From Aestuariivivens insulae (GTDB taxonomy: Bacteria; Bacteroidota; Bacteroidia; Flavobacteriales; Flavobacteriaceae): a DNA stretch of 64,000 bases. The stretch's first letter is position 1. Every line of letters begins with the position of its first letter. The notes under the pieces are model-generated. The model saw only the letters and a list, made by a program, of their open reading frames with translations, had not been told where the DNA came from and did not search any database. The translations under genes and the position numbers were made by a program. Positions 25,236 to 34,063 of the stretch are shown here, in pieces. The stretch is from NCBI RefSeq assembly GCF_022662195.1, contig NZ_JAKMCS010000001.1, positions 310,001 to 374,000 of the forward strand. Reading direction: 5' to 3'.

Positions 25236-26504
25236 TCAGATTTTAATTAATTCAGAATAATTAATAATTGTTGTATAGCCTTTACGTTCAAAATAGCCTC
25301 TAGGGTTCTCTTGGGAAGCTACTAAAATAAAATCGCCTCCCCAAGCCCCTAAACTTTTAATGCTGCCCTTAAAATCATGAAACAAGCGTTCTTTAATAGG
25401 GGTTTGTTTGGTCGCTTTAGAAATGATTCTTTCATGTTCTTGCATTAAGACTTCAAATGTTTTTAATGAATCACAACTAACCATCTCATGTGTAATTCTT
25501 GTAATGCTTTCGATATCCTGTTTCGAAACAGATGCATTGCTTTTGTAAAGCGCAATACCCTCTCGGCTATTTTGTTTCTTATTGAGATATACAAAGTATA
25601 AATGATCTTTAAATAACGGGTTAAAACCGACTTCTAAAACTTCGGGTTGGGCGTTTTTTAGTTGGTAAGTTATTGGTGTGTTGTATTGTGCACAGGCAAT
25701 GTCGTAACCACTGCCTCCAAAGGTAAGTTTTAAGAGTTTGTAAGCATCAATATTGGCCCATTGCGCTACATTATTGATTAAGGTAGATGATGTGCCTAAA
25801 CCCCAATTTCTTGGGAATGATAATTTGGTGGTCACATTAAAACCATGGTTGTCATTAATAAAATTTGGATTAATGGTTTTGGTGGCTTGTAATATTTCAA
25901 TTAACCTGTTAGAAATACTATTGTCAATGAGGGTGGCGCTAGAAATCCCATTATCAACAATTTCAAAGGTGTCTTCAAACCAAATATTGCCATTTTCATC
26001 TAAGCTCTTCCAAATAATTTTACCACTTCCTGTCTCTTCAACAGTTAACGATTGTCCTAGTGTGGTTGCAAGCGCGAGAGCCTTGGCACCATCTAAAACA
26101 ACATATTCTCCGGTAAGTAGTAGTTTGCCGTTGGAATAGTAGGTTGTTTCGGTGCCTGAGGCCCTCGAAGGCACCATGTTGTTAGGGATTGATATTTTAG
26201 AAATGTTCGAAGCCTCCTTGTCACGAAAGGCCATTGATAGCTCAGGAAGTTTATTAAAGTTGCCTTTAATCAAAGCCTTTTTTTTCTCCCTGTTCCAGCC
26301 TTGTATTTGCTTTTCCCTGTAAAAAGCATCATCTATTCTTTGGAACTCTTCGGCATAAACTAATCGTATAGGTAATCTTTTCTTAGTGTGATTAGCTCCT
26401 TGACCGCTCTGATGCTCTTCTAATCGTTTGTCTAAATGGGTGGTGCTTCCAGTATAAAAACTGCCATCTGAACATTCTAATATGTAAACATAGCCTTTAG
26501 GCAT
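25236..26504 (-). CDS. GIY-YIG endonuclease fused in frame to GYDIA-type GHMP kinase
   Basis: One open frame of 422 codons holds two unrelated proteins. Residues 1-82 are a complete small GIY-YIG (UPF0213-type) nuclease: YVYIL at 5-9, FYTGS at 16-20, Arg 27 in DKRLEEH and Glu 64 in YREKQIQGW. Residues 83-109 are a polar tail. From about 120 a GHMP kinase begins (YYSNGKLLLTGEYVVLDGA), with the ATP loop GLGTSS at 235-240 and the family-naming GGSGYDIACA at 263-272. Such kinases belong to mevalonate-type metabolism, consistent with the HMG-CoA reductase gene upstream. Separate kinase translation could begin at the ATG at 26177 (residue 110), which abuts a palindrome. Whether the long fusion protein is made is unknown. 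Confidence 0.88.
   Translation of the reverse strand: MPKGYVYILECSDGSFYTGSTTHLDKRLEEHQSGQGANHTKKRLPIRLVYAEEFQRIDDAFYREKQIQGWNREKKKALIKGNFNKLPELSMAFRDKEASNISKISIPNNMVPSRASGTETTYYSNGKLLLTGEYVVLDGAKALALATTLGQSLTVEETGSGKIIWKSLDENGNIWFEDTFEIVDNGISSATLIDNSISNRLIEILQATKTINPNFINDNHGFNVTTKLSFPRNWGLGTSSTLINNVAQWANIDAYKLLKLTFGGSGYDIACAQYNTPITYQLKNAQPEVLEVGFNPLFKDHLYFVYLNKKQNSREGIALYKSNASVSKQDIESITRITHEMVSCDSLKTFEVLMQEHERIISKATKQTPIKERLFHDFKGSIKSLGAWGGDFILVASQENPRGYFERKGYTTIINYSELIKI
26151..26175. repeat. REP-like palindrome at the nuclease/kinase junction
   Basis: A 25-nt imperfect palindrome: GGTGCCT and AGGCACC form a 7-bp stem around a core beginning GAG and ending CGA. It lies inside the fused frame and encodes residues of the linker VPSRASGT. 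Its reverse complement differs from 26597-26621 at one position. Confidence 0.9.
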
Positions 26505-26596
26505 TTTGTATTTGTTTTTTTAAAGGCGATATGGCCACAGTGTAACTCGAAGTGTCCTAAAAGCCTTAATTTTGAGTTATGTTCTTATTCTTTCGT

Positions 26597-26621
26597 GGTG
26601 CCTTCGAGAGCCTCAGGCACC
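26597..26621. repeat. REP-like palindrome at the reductase/nuclease junction
   Basis: A 25-nt palindrome with the same GGTGCCT/AGGCACC stem, inverted relative to 26151-26175 and identical at 24 of 25 positions. It contains the stop codon of the HMG-CoA reductase gene (26613-26615). Between it and the nuclease start lies a 92-nt leader with a decayed CTCGAAGTG-type element near 26547-26555. Confidence 0.9.
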
Positions 26622-27938
26622 AGTTGATCTTAATTTATTCAAAGCTTCCGAAACCGCATTATGCGATACGGTATGTGACTTGAAATGTTCTGTTAGCACT
26701 TGTTTTTCATCATCATTGGCACCAAATTGATTTAAGATATTCATTAAGTGCATTTTCATGTGCCCTTGTTGTATGCCAGTAGTGGTAAGTGAACGTAAGG
26801 CAGCAAAATTCTGTGCCAATCCTGCGACGGCAACAATTTGCATTAACTCTTTAGCTGATGGATGGTGTAGTAGTTCTAAGGCTAATTTTACCAAAGGATG
26901 AAGTTTGGTAAGTCCCCCAACAGTCCCTAGCGCTAATGGAATTTCAATCCAAAATTTAAATTTGCCATCTTCAACAGAAGCATGAGTTAAACTACTGTAG
27001 CGCCCTTTTCGTGAGGCATAGGCATGTACACCGGCTTCAATGGCCCTAAAGTCATTTCCAGTGGCTAAGACCACTGCGTCTATGCCATTCATAATGCCCT
27101 TGTTGTGGGTTACGGCACGATACGGTTCTATCTCGGCAATGTTAACGGCCTGTACAAATTTATGTGCAAAGGCTTCTCCCGAAATCGTTTGGCTTTCGCT
27201 TAAATCTTCAACATTACAGCTCACTTCTGCCCGAACCAAACAATCTGGAACATAGTTGGATAAAATGCTCATCACAATTTCAATTTGTTTTTCTTCTTCT
27301 GAAAATAAGTTGAATGTCTGGGCCTCATTCTTAAAAGTTTTGGCAAATTGTTCTAAACAGGAATTGATGAAATTTGCACCCATAGCATCCAAAGTCTCAA
27401 AAGAAACATGCAATTGGTAGTATCCTGAAATGTCATTGGTCTTATCGCGTAACTCAATAGCTGTAATACCGCCACCACGACTTTCCATGTTTTTGGTTAT
27501 GGAGGCAGTGTCACTAAAAAGCTTTGGTTTTACCTGTTCAAAAAAGGTTTTAAGTTTATTGAAATCGCCACGGTACATAAAGTGTACCTGACCTATTTTA
27601 GTAGTGGAAATAACTTCGGTTTTAAAACCACCTCGGTCCAACCAAAATTTAGCTGCTTTACTTGCGGCGGCTACTACCGAACTTTCTTCAATAGCCATAG
27701 GGATGGTGTGTAACTTGCCGTTAATAAGGAAGTTTGGAGCGACGCCTAAGGGTAAATAATAGTTGGTAATGGTGTTTTCAATAAATTCATCATGCAATTG
27801 TTGGATTTTTTCATCGGTATTCCAATATTGCTTAATAATGGTTTTAGCTTCTTCAGAATTTGAGAAATAGGTATCAACAATCCAATCAATTTTTTTTGCC
27901 TTGGATAATTTTGAAAAACCAGAAATAGATTTGCTCAT
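26613..27938 (-). CDS. hydroxymethylglutaryl-CoA reductase, class II (degradative type)
   Basis: A 441-residue class II HMG-CoA reductase. The N-terminal substrate region includes LPLGVAPNFLINGKLHTIPMA and AIEESSVVAAASKAAKFW; the later KGIMNGIDAVVLATGNDFRAIEAGVHAYA segment holds catalytic Lys and Asp residues; GTVGGLTKLHP lies near the C-terminal third. In Bacteroidota class II enzymes may serve mevalonate synthesis, and the GHMP kinase gene next door supports that here. The protein ends LNKLRSTGA; the last residues and stop lie in the palindrome at 26597. A TATCTTTG element at 27958-27965 is a candidate -7 box, without a good -33 match. Confidence 0.92.
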   Translation of the reverse strand: MSKSISGFSKLSKAKKIDWIVDTYFSNSEEAKTIIKQYWNTDEKIQQLHDEFIENTITNYYLPLGVAPNFLINGKLHTIPMAIEESSVVAAASKAAKFWLDRGGFKTEVISTTKIGQVHFMYRGDFNKLKTFFEQVKPKLFSDTASITKNMESRGGGITAIELRDKTNDISGYYQLHVSFETLDAMGANFINSCLEQFAKTFKNEAQTFNLFSEEEKQIEIVMSILSNYVPDCLVRAEVSCNVEDLSESQTISGEAFAHKFVQAVNIAEIEPYRAVTHNKGIMNGIDAVVLATGNDFRAIEAGVHAYASRKGRYSSLTHASVEDGKFKFWIEIPLALGTVGGLTKLHPLVKLALELLHHPSAKELMQIVAVAGLAQNFAALRSLTTTGIQQGHMKMHLMNILNQFGANDDEKQVLTEHFKSHTVSHNAVSEALNKLRSTGA

Positions 27939-28288
27939 GTGTTAGTCGATTTCAGCACAAAGATACTACTCTTGATACGAATTTTGGATATCTCACTGTC
28001 CAGCCCATTATTTATGTGTTAATAATTACGGTTTTTGCATAATTTTTAGTAAACTTGACCTCGTTTTAAGAAATAGATATTTTTTTCTTTAAATTATCCA
28101 TGATTTGTAATTTGCTCTGTGCAAAAAGATATTGCAGCTATGATATTTAAAGATGATAAAGACCAGTAACTTACGGATGAAACATCCATTATTAATTTTT
28201 TAATAATACAACAAAATGATAATTTGGATGTTACATGCCTGCGCTGAGCCAGTCGAAGCGCGACCTTTGAAGAAAAGTATATAAACGC
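27939..28288. other. 350-nt spacer between divergent reductase and peptidase genes
   Basis: It holds the upstream regions of both divergent genes. Visible items are the TATCTTTG candidate -7 box for the reductase and the palindrome at 28241-28261, whose right arm ends 27 nt before the peptidase start codon. Nothing else was recognised in the AT-rich middle. Confidence 0.55.
28241..28261. repeat. REP-like palindrome upstream of the S9 peptidase gene
   Basis: A 5-bp GCGCT/AGCGC stem encloses GAGCCAGTCGA. The stem sequence differs from those at 26151 and 39146, but the core has the same GAG...CGA ends. Confidence 0.85.
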
Positions 28289-30529
28289 ATGAAATATTTT
28301 AGATTTTCCCTAATCATCTGCTTTTTCCTAACTACAATTTTATCGGCTCAAAATAAAACCATAGATATTAAGGATATATGGAATGGAACGTTTAGAACAG
28401 AAGGTATGGATGTCCTGCATTCCATGAAAAATGGACAACAATATTCGGTATTGAATTTTGATAGGGCGACACGCAGCACATCGGTTGATATTTATGATTA
28501 TAAAACTTTAAGTAAGGAAAAAACCTTGGTTAGTTCAAGAGCTATTGAGCAGCTACAGTATTTTACGGATTATACATTTAGCGAAGACGAATCGAAAGTA
28601 TTATTGGCCACAAACCAAGAAGCGATTTACAGGCGTTCAACACTTGGGGATTATTTTGTTTATAACATAGCCACCAAATCGGTTACAAAGGTTTCAGAAG
28701 AAAGGATTCAGGAACCCACCTTTTCACCAGACGGTACTAAAGTGGCTTATGGTTTAAATAATAACCTGTACGTTAAAGATTTGCTATCGGAAGAAACCAT
28801 TCAAATAACATTCGATGGGGAAAAGAATAAAATTATTAATGGTATGACCGATTGGGTCTATGAAGAAGAGTTTGCCTTTGTACGTGCCTTTGAATGGAAT
28901 GCCAGTGGCGATAAGATTGCCTTTATTAGGTTTGATGAGACCAATGTTCCCGAGTTTTCAATGGATATTTATGGAACAGGCTTGTACCCCACAGAAGATA
29001 CTTTTAAATACCCTAAAGCAGGAGAAGCAAATTCTATGGTGTCACTTCATATTTATGATGTGGAAACTAAGCATACTGAAGAAGTAAAGTTAGATAAACC
29101 TTATGCCGATTTTTACATTCCGCGTATAAAATGGACAAGCCGCCCAGATATTTTAAGTGCGCAGTACATGAACAGGCACCAAAGCGAATTGGATTTATGG
29201 TTTATTGATGCAAAAAAGAATAACGCTAAACTTATTTTAAGTGAAACTGATAAGGCTTATGTGGATATAACCGATAACCTTACTTTTTTAAAGGATAATA
29301 GTTTTATTTGGACTAGTGAAAAGGATGGTTACAACCATATTTATCATTACGACCAAAATGGAAAACTTATTAATCAGGTAACCAAAGGAAACTGGGAAGT
29401 CACCGATTATTATGGTTATGATGAGGCAAACAATATCATTTTTTATCAGTCTGTAGAAAATGGTTCAATTAATAGGGATGTCTATGCCATACAATTAAAT
29501 GGTCGGGATAAAAAACGATTGACTAAAAGTGAAGGTACCAATAGCGCATCCTTTAGTGCAGATTTCTCCTATTTTATCAATTCCTTTTCCAGTGCTACTA
29601 CACCCCCAGAATATTCACTTAACAGCGCAGCATCGGGAAATTTAATAAAGAGCATTGTAGATAACGATTTGCTGTCGTTAAAACTTTCAGATTATAAAAC
29701 ATCGAAAAAAGAATTTAGTACCATTCATGTTAACGGTAACGATTTAAACATGTGGATGATTAAACCGGCCAATTTTGATGACACCAAGGAATATCCGTTG
29801 TTAATGTATCAATACTCTGGTCCAGGGTCACAAGAAGTGGCAAACCAGTGGAATGGAGCTAACGATTATTGGTTTCAGCATTTAGCACAAGAAGGCTATG
29901 TTATTGCTTGTGTAGATGGGCGTGGCACAGGGTTTAAAGGAGCGGCGTTTAAAAAGATAACCCAAAACGAATTGGGTAAATACGAAGTTGAAGATCAAAT
30001 AGCAGCGGCCAAAAAGTTAGGTGAACTACCATATATTGATGCCTCTAGGATAGGTATTTGGGGGTGGAGCTTTGGTGGTTTTATGAGCAGTAATTGTTTA
30101 TTTAAAGGCAATGATGTGTTTAAAATGGCCATTGCGGTGGCCCCGGTTACCAGTTGGCGATTTTACGACACGATCTATACCGAACGTTATATGACTACGC
30201 CTCAAGAGAACCCAAGCGGTTATGACGATAATTCGCCATTAAGCCATATTGATAAGCTAAAAGGTGATTTTTTGTTGGTTCATGGATCGGCAGACGATAA
30301 TGTGCATTTACAAAATACCATGCGTTTGGCAGAAGCCTTAATACAAGCCGATAAACCATTCGATTGGGCCGTATACCCAGACGATAACCACGGTATTTAT
30401 GGTGGCAATACCAGATTGCATTTGTATAAAAAAATGACCCGTTTTATCCATGAAACTTTAGGAGATAAAAGGGAGCAACAGAAAGAGGAAGAAAAAGAGA
30501 AAAAGGAAAAATTAAAGATACAAGGATAA
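28289..30529 (+). CDS. S9 family prolyl peptidase, dipeptidyl peptidase IV type
   Basis: A 746-residue exported serine peptidase with a signal peptide (ending near SAQ, residue 21). The N-terminal beta-propeller (DPPIV_N) spans to about residue 480 and includes the DWVYEEEFAF motif, whose Glu pair binds the substrate N-terminus. The C-terminal alpha/beta-hydrolase has the nucleophile Ser in GWSFGG (about 594), Asp in GSADDNVH and His in DDNHGIYGG. It removes Xaa-Pro or Xaa-Ala dipeptides. Two POT transporters follow, so the three likely form a peptide-use module. The C-terminal tail is a charged E/K run. Confidence 0.93.
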   Translation: MKYFRFSLIICFFLTTILSAQNKTIDIKDIWNGTFRTEGMDVLHSMKNGQQYSVLNFDRATRSTSVDIYDYKTLSKEKTLVSSRAIEQLQYFTDYTFSEDESKVLLATNQEAIYRRSTLGDYFVYNIATKSVTKVSEERIQEPTFSPDGTKVAYGLNNNLYVKDLLSEETIQITFDGEKNKIINGMTDWVYEEEFAFVRAFEWNASGDKIAFIRFDETNVPEFSMDIYGTGLYPTEDTFKYPKAGEANSMVSLHIYDVETKHTEEVKLDKPYADFYIPRIKWTSRPDILSAQYMNRHQSELDLWFIDAKKNNAKLILSETDKAYVDITDNLTFLKDNSFIWTSEKDGYNHIYHYDQNGKLINQVTKGNWEVTDYYGYDEANNIIFYQSVENGSINRDVYAIQLNGRDKKRLTKSEGTNSASFSADFSYFINSFSSATTPPEYSLNSAASGNLIKSIVDNDLLSLKLSDYKTSKKEFSTIHVNGNDLNMWMIKPANFDDTKEYPLLMYQYSGPGSQEVANQWNGANDYWFQHLAQEGYVIACVDGRGTGFKGAAFKKITQNELGKYEVEDQIAAAKKLGELPYIDASRIGIWGWSFGGFMSSNCLFKGNDVFKMAIAVAPVTSWRFYDTIYTERYMTTPQENPSGYDDNSPLSHIDKLKGDFLLVHGSADDNVHLQNTMRLAEALIQADKPFDWAVYPDDNHGIYGGNTRLHLYKKMTRFIHETLGDKREQQKEEEKEKKEKLKIQG

Positions 30530-32287: not shown

Positions 32288-34063
32288 ATGAATACAGACA
32301 TTGAAAGTTTATTTAAAGATAAAGTTTTAGGACATCCAGCAGGGCTGTTTGTTTTGTTTTTTACCGAAATGTGGGAGCGTTTTTCTTACTATGGCATGCG
32401 TGCCTTACTTATCCTATTCTTTACAGCTTCCATAATGGAAGAAGGAGGGTGGGGTTGGCCTAAGGAATGGGCTTATGCCATTTTTGGAACCTATACGTCA
32501 TTGGTTTATCTATCTACCATGTTAGGCGGATACTTTGCAGATAATATAATAGGGATTAGAAAGGCTGTTGTTGTTGGAGCTTTATTAATGACACTGGGGC
32601 ATGCGTGTATGGCTCTTGAAACAACATTCTTTATCTATTTAGGCTTAACGCTGTTGGTATTTGGTAGTGGGTTTTTCAAGCCTAATATGACCTCTATTAT
32701 TTCTGAAATGTACAAAGAGAAACCAGAAAAAAAAGATGGTGCTTATACTATTTTCTACATGGGAGTAAATGCAGGAGCGTTTCTTGGTATTTTATTATGC
32801 GGTTATTTAGGTGAAAAAGTAGGATGGTCTTGGGGATTTGGAATAGCAGGGATTTTTATGCTGTTTGGTCTATTGCAGTTTTGGTTTGCCCAAGGGATTT
32901 TTGGAAGTATTGCACTCAAGCCTAAAAAAGAAAATGAAGATGTGGTTGATATAGTAATGGATACTTCTCCAGACTATGAGACTTCAGAAGAAAGAAGAAA
33001 CCCTTTTACGCAAGTGCAAAGAATAATGATTGTAATTGCAGCAACTCTGGGCTTAGCTTGGATTTTAAATGATCCTATATCTAAAATATCGGAGGGAGAA
33101 TATAATCTGTTTAATTTTGAAATGTTTGGCCTGTCAGGATCTACAGTAACCATTTTATTTGCGCTAGCTCTATTTGTCCTTTTATTGGTTATTAGAATTC
33201 CTAGATATGTGAAAACAACCCGGGAGAAAATGATAGCAATTATTTTCTTTGCGTTTGTAACAATGTTCTTTTGGGCAATCTTTGAACAATCACCAAGTTC
33301 GTTAACAGTATTTGCAAGAGACTATACACAACGAACATTGGAAGGTAATGCAGGATTAACATTTAAAATAGTAAATTCTCTAATGACCATTATTCCATTA
33401 GGAGTGATTTCATGGGTGTTGGCAATGCTATTTAAAAAGACTTTTGCGAAGTATTCGTTATCTAATATTTTCTTGACCTTGAGTTTTCTTATTGTTTGGG
33501 GAATAGCGATATGGATGTTGTCTACTGAATTTCAGAAAGATCAAACAGAAGTGCCTGCATCATGGTTCTCGGTATTAAACTCATTGTTTATAATTACCTT
33601 GGCTCCGCTATTTTCTAAATGGTGGGAAAGCAAGTATAATCCAAATGCCAATATGAAGTGGGCCATTGGCATGGGCCTTTTAGGATTGGGAATGGCTTGT
33701 GTTGCGTTTGGAGCTGGAGGTATTGAACCAGGGGCGAAAACAGCCCAAGTGAGCATGGTATGGTTAATATTAGTTTATTTGTTCCATACTATGGGAGAGC
33801 TTTGTATTTCCCCAGTAGGATTGTCTTATGTGAGTAAGTTAGTTCCTGCACGTATGATAGCAACTATGTTTGGTATATGGTACTTAGCTATAGCTATAGG
33901 AATGAAACTGGCAGGGATGTTTGCAGAGTCTTCGGAGTCTATTGCCCAAGAACATGGAATAAGTTATTTCTTCTGGATACTAACGGGGGTATCGTTAGCT
34001 CTTGCGGTGTTGTCTGCAATCTTATATCCAGTAATCAAAAAACTCATGCACGGTGTGCGATAA
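32288..34063 (+). CDS. POT/PTR family peptide MFS transporter (second of tandem pair)
   Basis: A 591-residue paralogue of the preceding transporter. It has FFTEMWERFSYYGMRALL, LGGYFADNIIGIRKAV and YTIFYMGVNAGAFLGIL, plus the conserved FWAIFEQSPSSLT helix and HTMGELCISPVGLSYVSKL. It is longer by about 70 residues, mainly through a polar insertion after helix 6 (KPKKENEDVVDIVMDTSPDY) of unknown role. A strong terminator follows at 34089, closing the peptidase-transporter group. Confidence 0.93.
   Translation: MNTDIESLFKDKVLGHPAGLFVLFFTEMWERFSYYGMRALLILFFTASIMEEGGWGWPKEWAYAIFGTYTSLVYLSTMLGGYFADNIIGIRKAVVVGALLMTLGHACMALETTFFIYLGLTLLVFGSGFFKPNMTSIISEMYKEKPEKKDGAYTIFYMGVNAGAFLGILLCGYLGEKVGWSWGFGIAGIFMLFGLLQFWFAQGIFGSIALKPKKENEDVVDIVMDTSPDYETSEERRNPFTQVQRIMIVIAATLGLAWILNDPISKISEGEYNLFNFEMFGLSGSTVTILFALALFVLLLVIRIPRYVKTTREKMIAIIFFAFVTMFFWAIFEQSPSSLTVFARDYTQRTLEGNAGLTFKIVNSLMTIIPLGVISWVLAMLFKKTFAKYSLSNIFLTLSFLIVWGIAIWMLSTEFQKDQTEVPASWFSVLNSLFIITLAPLFSKWWESKYNPNANMKWAIGMGLLGLGMACVAFGAGGIEPGAKTAQVSMVWLILVYLFHTMGELCISPVGLSYVSKLVPARMIATMFGIWYLAIAIGMKLAGMFAESSESIAQEHGISYFFWILTGVSLALAVLSAILYPVIKKLMHGVR

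Follow-up and report, generated by a model that had tools for sequence, protein, structure and literature searches.

Introduction

The closest described systems are the REPtrons, in which RAYT enzymes of the Y1 type go together with GTAG-tagged REPs and REPINs. Free-standing GIY-YIG homing endonucleases offer another parallel, as here too an enzyme is tied to the spread of its own gene; they differ in that they target the uninterrupted allele, and we know of none that is bracketed by hairpins of matching type. Slx1 (of Slx1-Slx4) likewise has the GIY-YIG fold, and the titles of its structure entries name branched DNA substrates. It is, however, a larger protein that has a partner, and we know of no mobility associated with it.

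A further group of REPs carries a CGTC tag and includes dRS3 of Neisseria and RPE-4 and RPE-6 of Rickettsia (Di Nocera 2013, PMC3733652). The accessible part of that survey presents the CGTC REPs as being without a dedicated transposase (PMC3733652). A literature search, which covered few subscription papers and no preprints, found no link between GIY-YIG genes and REP palindromes among the papers listed.

Here we describe a segment within a 64,000-nt stretch of Aestuariivivens insulae DNA (the window) in which a small GIY-YIG nuclease gene lies between inverted hairpins. The segment is probably a copy of a mobile unit in which the nuclease targets the hairpin of that unit, and it is apparently one member of a large, undescribed class.

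Results

The original prediction placed a GIY-YIG unit bounded by inverted palindromes at the junction of HMG-CoA reductase and GHMP kinase genes. The inverted pair at 26151..26621 is confirmed, with arms of 26 nt each (26151-26176 and 26596-26621) that are 96% complementary and spaced by 419 nt, and the Pfam and NCBIfam matches bear out the position of the unit (Table 1). The nuclease had also been called small and complete. The domain is present, whereas the complete frame is not: the reading frame starts at 26504 on the minus strand, has no stop codon of its own and continues across palindrome 1 (26151-26176) as far as the end of the kinase. An ATG that borders this palindrome (26177-26175) is, judging from its position, a possible start for the kinase itself. 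As in a REPtron, a gene is bracketed here by inverted copies of a dispersed palindrome.

Table 1. Features at and near the GIY-YIG unit of the window. Tag and stem positions of palindrome 1 were set from an alignment of 201 palindromes.
Feature	Position	Strand	Remarks
Palindrome 1 (kinase side)	26150..26176	+	tag CG 26150-26151, stem GTGCC/GGCAC, core TGAGGCCCTCGAA 26157-26169
Palindrome 2 (reductase side), inverted	26596..26621	-	reductase stop codon inside
Clade A GIY-YIG nuclease, 95 aa	26220..26504	-	Pfam GIY-YIG at residues 3-75, E 1.4e-16; Y7, Y17, R27, H31, E64 all present
Single open frame, 422 aa, nuclease in frame with GYDIA-family GHMP kinase	25236..26504	-	
GYDIA GHMP kinase	25236..26177	-	NCBIfam NF040656 E 5.1e-130
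HMG-CoA reductase	26613..27938	-	end inside palindrome 2
Solo palindrome of the window class, without nuclease gene	28237..28265	+	CGC-TGAGCCAGTCGAA-GCG; upstream of ORF at 28289

When up to 3 mismatches are allowed, the pattern GTGCCTGAGNNNNTCGAAGGCAC matches the window at the two arms alone, and no match occurs in 100 dinucleotide shuffles of the window. Across the 4.23-Mb genome (G000) there are 13 matches, compared to 0 for the reversed control pattern, and 11 of the 13 lie away from the genome's nuclease matches. One inverted pair has no gene in between (C30:185364 and 185417, spanning 185364-185439). A search for perfect hairpins around the genome's nucleases returned one only, because hairpins of this type carry a GA bulge.

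A palindrome of the window class also lies in frame within a coding gene (L027:1501-1523, i.e. C1:36437-36459, residues MVSSRTSDT). It occupies a loop of variable length, with an apparent decayed remnant in genome G001 and no hairpin in G003, and for these reasons its support is weak.

We scanned a species-genome collection for relatives of the window nuclease and kept the best 80 of at least 539 confirmed stretches, which are 52-77% identical to the query; this set is referred to as clade A, and all clade A counts below are drawn from these best 80 of at least 539. The record titles name Bacteroidota, Chloroflexi, Cyanobacteria, Spirochaetes, Proteobacteria, Actinobacteria and others, with many metagenome-assembled genomes among them. 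A bracketing inverted repeat with a score of at least 14 is found at 40 of 79 clade A loci, compared to 16 of 1582 control positions taken from these loci. Most of these repeats share the core TGAG-N4-6-TCGAA. A hairpin with this core lies within 400 nt of the gene at 66 of 80 loci, and among 79 loci the motif is found on both sides in 47, on one side in 18 and on neither in 14. Its density is 6.2/kb within 150 nt of the gene, but only 0.06-0.08/kb beyond 1.4 kb.

The stems of the 201 distinct clade A palindromes covary. The five outer pairs are Watson-Crick in 191, 178, 182, 144 and 104 palindromes, compared to shuffle means of 131, 73, 85, 86 and 63, respectively, and several pair types are used. 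The stem follows an unpaired 5′ tag with the sequence YG, and position 6 is G in 180 of the 201. The hairpins show an orientation bias of only about 2:1 in clade A (75/113) as well as in clade B (64/103; see below).

A comparison of 100 family genomes gives a higher TGAG motif count for those that have a clade A nuclease (median 6.5 vs. 2, p 1e-5), with a moderate correlation between motif abundance and nuclease (rho 0.47, compared to 0.21 for a control pattern). A clade A match is found in 13 of the 16 genomes with a clear TGAG excess and is absent from the other 3.

A second set, clade B, was obtained by searching 118 genomes of the phylum with another small nuclease of the window's genome, which gave matches in 63. 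The loci examined comprise 30 from the search and 40 picked by hand from its list, and L200-L202 are not part of the set. Bracketing inverted repeats scoring at least 14 are found at 26 of 68 clade B loci, compared to 6 of 527 control positions, and they fit [CT]GTC-AT...AT-C[CT], the form of the CGTC REPs as given in the accessible part of the 2013 survey (PMC3733652). The rule for calling a CGTC hairpin was loosened after the clade B loci had been viewed, whereby the count rose from 18/65 under the strict rule to 26/74 and then to 58/75. The final set of 75 includes L002-L004, which have no CGTC hairpin and group with clade A on the nuclease tree; without them the count is 58/72.

Since the loose rule was chosen after looking, records from a plasmid collection, Y1 transposase loci and the clade A loci serve as its checks. 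Applied unchanged to 16 of the 33 plasmid-collection records, the remainder being apparent near-duplicates judging by their listing, it finds a CGTC hairpin in 13 and on both sides of the gene in 10, at a density of 3.5/kb near the gene vs. 0.5/kb far from it. The 3 records of the 16 without a CGTC hairpin are L320, L328 and L330; L320 and L328 represent another 2 and 7 records like them, respectively, while the Sphingobium locus with a hairpin also stands for several. The hosts of these clade B records include Sinorhizobium meliloti, Azospirillum lipoferum, Neisseria and Sphingobium, the last being presumably the genus of the 'S. chlorophenolicum' of the 2013 survey. The other three are among the CGTC REP hosts named in the accessible part of that survey (PMC3733652).

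Each clade is thus paired with a palindrome class of its own, in line with the check that the original prediction had set for nuclease clades and their stems: TGAG hairpins at 66/80 clade A loci (best 80 of at least 539) and CGTC hairpins at 58/72 clade B loci, with few crossings. CGTC hairpins occur at 3 of the 80 clade A loci, and TGAG hairpins at 6 of 75 clade B loci as scored, or 3 of 72 without L002-L004. At 30 Y1 transposase loci from the same phylum genomes, there are 0 TGAG and 2 CGTC hairpins within 400 nt. On a tree of 154 nucleases, from which L012 and L172 are omitted, the hairpin label changes only twice, compared to a shuffle mean of 40 (0/500 as low), when the 27 rows with neither hairpin and the 5 with both are set aside to leave 122. 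The association of each nuclease clade with its own hairpin class is therefore very strong.

A finer correspondence is seen within each clade, in data that include related hosts and several loci per genome. The stem words of clade B track the tree (28 changes vs. 36 in shuffles, 0/2000 as low; in a thinned set, 27 vs. 33.8), with a Mantel r of -0.26 (0/2000). The loop class of clade A does so as well (20 changes vs. 28.7; in a thinned set, 19 vs. 26.4, 2/2000; from the best 80 of at least 539).

Several other small nucleases of the window's genome sit amid different palindromes. Among its seven other GIY-YIG loci, a TGAG match is found at one (L007) and a CGTC hairpin at none. At L007 (1434-1824; C11:601 kb), a small GIY-YIG gene is flanked by direct repeats of 26 nt that are 88% alike and seem to copy the start of a downstream gene, epimerase-like by eye. 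Three other units are of a different type. The first (L014:1428-1842, C27) has the intact tRNA-Leu(caa) gene on one side and, on the other, 24 nt that duplicate the 5′ end of this gene; the second (L010:1-567, C32) adjoins tRNA-Leu(gag), with a 20-nt copy of the tRNA end and a 135-nt repeated stretch; and the third (L015:1-512, C5) has a 157-nt repeated stretch and no called tRNA. None of the three has palindromes of the window or CGTC type, and they look like homing-type insertions that regenerate their target.

In the window's genome, L005 and L006 are 92% identical over 413 nt, from TGTCATT to AATGACA, beyond which just one further palindrome aligns. In G090, L304/L308 and L307/L308 are 83-84% identical and stop at the tags or no more than 2 nt from them, and in G077, L309 and L310, which lie about 6.4 kb apart, are 99% identical over 420 nt and end within 2 nt of the tags. 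In one comparison of same-genome pairs with at least 75% identity, 3 of 11 end at the tags on both sides and 8 do not: L304/L307 and the pair of G056 run beyond them (for L304/L307, 92% identical, by about 40 nt past the upstream tag), those of G069 are tandem arrays, and others stop short. In the upstream flanks of L005 and L006, a TGAG-type palindrome is nested within the loop of CGTC palindromes, an arrangement that looks like the insertion of one hairpin into another.

The prediction of empty sites holds for clade B units too, in Azospirillum and Sphingobium. In A. lipoferum, a unit lies between sufB and sufC, which are without it in A. ramasamyi, A. oryzae and strain B510 (flanks 96.3, 95.5 and 94.7% identical); by eye, no palindrome of this kind is present at the empty site in these three sisters. 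In Sphingobium, fnrL and a response regulator gene flank the full stretch in seven records, two of which were examined. At the same site, TomTYG74 has no unit and an apparent lone palindrome, while TomTYG72 and TomTYG65 have neither. No target-site duplication was seen by eye in the copies or in the Azospirillum and Sphingobium site comparisons, where the flanks have diverged. We conclude that the unit is likely mobile.

Empty sites were likewise foreseen at the junction in the window, and two of three genus-mates have the reductase and kinase genes nearly adjacent, with gaps of 15 nt (G001) and 12 nt (G002) between the reductase stop and the kinase match. The third, G003, carries a nuclease at the same junction that is 72% identical, with decayed palindromes and K in place of E64. 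In the wider family, a nuclease lies just upstream of the GYDIA kinase at 13 of 40 loci, a biased sample in which 5 of the 13 occupied loci entered via the nuclease search and L291 was chosen for its long frame; the remaining 27 have none. The kinase search on its own yielded 30 loci, of which 5 (L049, L263, L271, L276 and L282) are occupied. Gaps measure 4-24 nt at 21 of 25 empty junctions. At L054, L056, L060 and L091, the motifs used recognised the kinase side alone.

Occupancy is unclustered on the kinase tree, with 10 changes (152/500 shuffles as low). This tree excludes L051, an empty locus, and L294, as neither matched the kinase motif, and also L053, which shares a contig with L291. 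Supported sister pairs are discordant, namely G362 (occupied) and G139 (empty; support 99), and Bizionia (occupied) and G375 (empty; support 98). The stems of the occupied copies differ yet remain self-complementary, e.g. GTGCC/GGCAC, GTGTC/GACAC and GTGGC/GCCAC. The scattered occupancy, the discordant pairs and the differing stems thus indicate that the unit has been gained or lost repeatedly at this junction, which would reflect either preferred targeting or an old insertion followed by loss. As the nuclease lies upstream of the kinase at 13 of 40 loci in the biased sample, the window copy need not stem from a recent random hop; it may go back to an old insertion or mark a preferred target. 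With this caveat and that of the in-frame kinase fusion, the proposed layout of a minimal mobile unit is supported.

The window nuclease has both the domain match and the Y, Y, R, H and E residues of the GIY-YIG superfamily, which we take to be the catalytic ones. Y7, Y17, R27 and H31 are invariant among 35 aligned sequences and E64 is present in 34, the G003 copy being the one with K. By profile, the closest solved structures are the UPF0213 proteins 1zg2 (E 2e-22) and 1ywl (E 7e-18), both catalogued as hypothetical proteins. The structure model (mean pLDDT 90.9) also has two UPF0213 proteins as its nearest folds, followed by Slx1 (TM 0.60, rmsd 1.8-1.9 Å over 72-73 columns, E 0.007-0.02). 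Given its nearness to this branched-DNA nuclease, the modelled fold would fit an enzyme that sees hairpins or cruciforms. The window protein has no match in the PADLOC search for defence systems or in PHROGs; L008 has weak matches in the former and one weak homing-endonuclease match in the latter.

Discussion

The clade-specific pairing, the covarying stems, the same-genome copies, some of which end at tags, the empty sites and the dispersed solo hairpins are all seen directly. We propose a minimal mobile element with the order tag, hairpin, small GIY-YIG nuclease, inverted hairpin, tag. The nuclease would meet its own hairpin as an extruded cruciform or folded on single-stranded lagging-strand DNA, would recognize it by the unpaired 5′ tag and the asymmetric stem, and would make a nick or a cut at the tag. 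As GIY-YIG enzymes work by hydrolysis of DNA and are not known to go through a covalent intermediate, we invoke host repair or ligation, which would copy or move the whole unit, or the hairpins alone, to a new site. The nuclease is a plausible agent; its agency, the position of the cut and the rejoining of the ends are inferred. On balance, we favor a widespread kind of element that has two large branches (TGAG..TCGAA and CGTC) and depends on a stand-alone GIY-YIG nuclease to move the hairpin to which that nuclease is dedicated.

If the nuclease were a homing endonuclease that enters palindrome dimers already in place, with the hairpins as a landing site that spreads otherwise, this would account for the gene-free inverted dimer on C30, for the lone palindrome that apparently marks the unit-less site in Sphingobium TomTYG74, and for the resemblance of other small GIY-YIG units of the window's genome to homing insertions at tRNA genes. 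We consider it unlikely, as most empty sites have no dimer: the gaps at the empty reductase/kinase junctions are mostly short, and by eye the three Azospirillum sisters have no such palindrome between sufB and sufC. In addition, some units end at their outer tags, and Y1 transposases are not associated with the hairpins.

Similarly doubtful is a structure-specific enzyme that serves the host by trimming or policing extruded hairpins, the hairpins themselves spreading by slippage or recombination. Such an enzyme would hardly be expected to occur as near-identical copies at separate places in one genome, to be present or absent between sisters, or to be 52-77% identical to the query across many phyla (by record titles, best 80 of at least 539), even though the fold is nearest to Slx1 after UPF0213 and the G003 copy has retained its site despite the E64 to K change.

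In their size, tags and dimer layout the hairpins are REP-like, and a Y1 match is found in 79 of the 118 phylum genomes, so that the hairpins could in principle be ordinary REPs moved by Y1 (RAYT) transposases, with the nuclease as a passenger. We rejected this very improbable idea because the Y1 loci have almost none of these hairpins (0/30 TGAG, 2/30 CGTC) and the window's genome has one broken Y1 match and one inside a 511-aa frame; furthermore, the accessible part of the 2013 survey reports no CGTC hairpins at tyrosine transposases (PMC3733652). That the gene is inherited vertically and the hairpins only terminate or stabilise its mRNA is scarcely credible. Their density does peak within 150 nt of the gene (best 80 of at least 539), but 11 of the 13 copies in the window's genome lie away from nuclease matches, one is inside a coding frame (L027) and termination needs no sequence-specific pairing with a clade.

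On the reading that we prefer, the unit is mobile and its nuclease targets the hairpin of that unit. Such a unit resembles the REPtrons in having a small enzyme gene between inverted tagged hairpins, solo hairpins and dimers that are dispersed, and enzyme clades matched to hairpin types, a likeness drawn in part from the accessible portion of the 2013 survey (PMC3733652). It differs in the enzyme, which is HUH/Y1 in REPtrons, whereas the window frame is GIY-YIG with no Y1_Tnp match in Pfam; in the tag, which is GTAG there but YG (clade A) or [CT]GTC (clade B) here; and in that some whole-unit copies here end at the tags. With the CGTC REPs, as far as the survey is accessible (PMC3733652), clade B hairpins share the CGTC/TGTC tag, the AT stem foot and the CC(A) tail, partly by design of the rule; in contrast to those REPs, they bracket a GIY-YIG gene. 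The window hairpin is of the other class, with a CG tag and a TGAG..TCGAA core (CG-GTGCC-TGAG), and the window holds one CGTC-rule match only, at 32552.

The clade B GIY-YIG nuclease is thus a candidate for the missing mobiliser of the CGTC REPs, which would include Neisseria dRS3 and, putatively, the Rickettsia RPEs. If this is true, it would constitute a second, unrelated solution to the RAYT/REP problem, a hydrolytic nuclease would join the enzymes thought to spread palindromic repeats, and many genes annotated as 'GIY-YIG nuclease family protein' would acquire a role. Nuclease clade predicts hairpin class in organisms named in the survey and in many others, and the open question of the CGTC REPs thereby becomes testable with a small enzyme and an oligonucleotide. 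As a separate observation, the GYDIA kinase frame of L292 (G284) contains an extra in-frame stretch, SAISRQARNDKRT, which by eye is like a translated CGTC-type palindrome.
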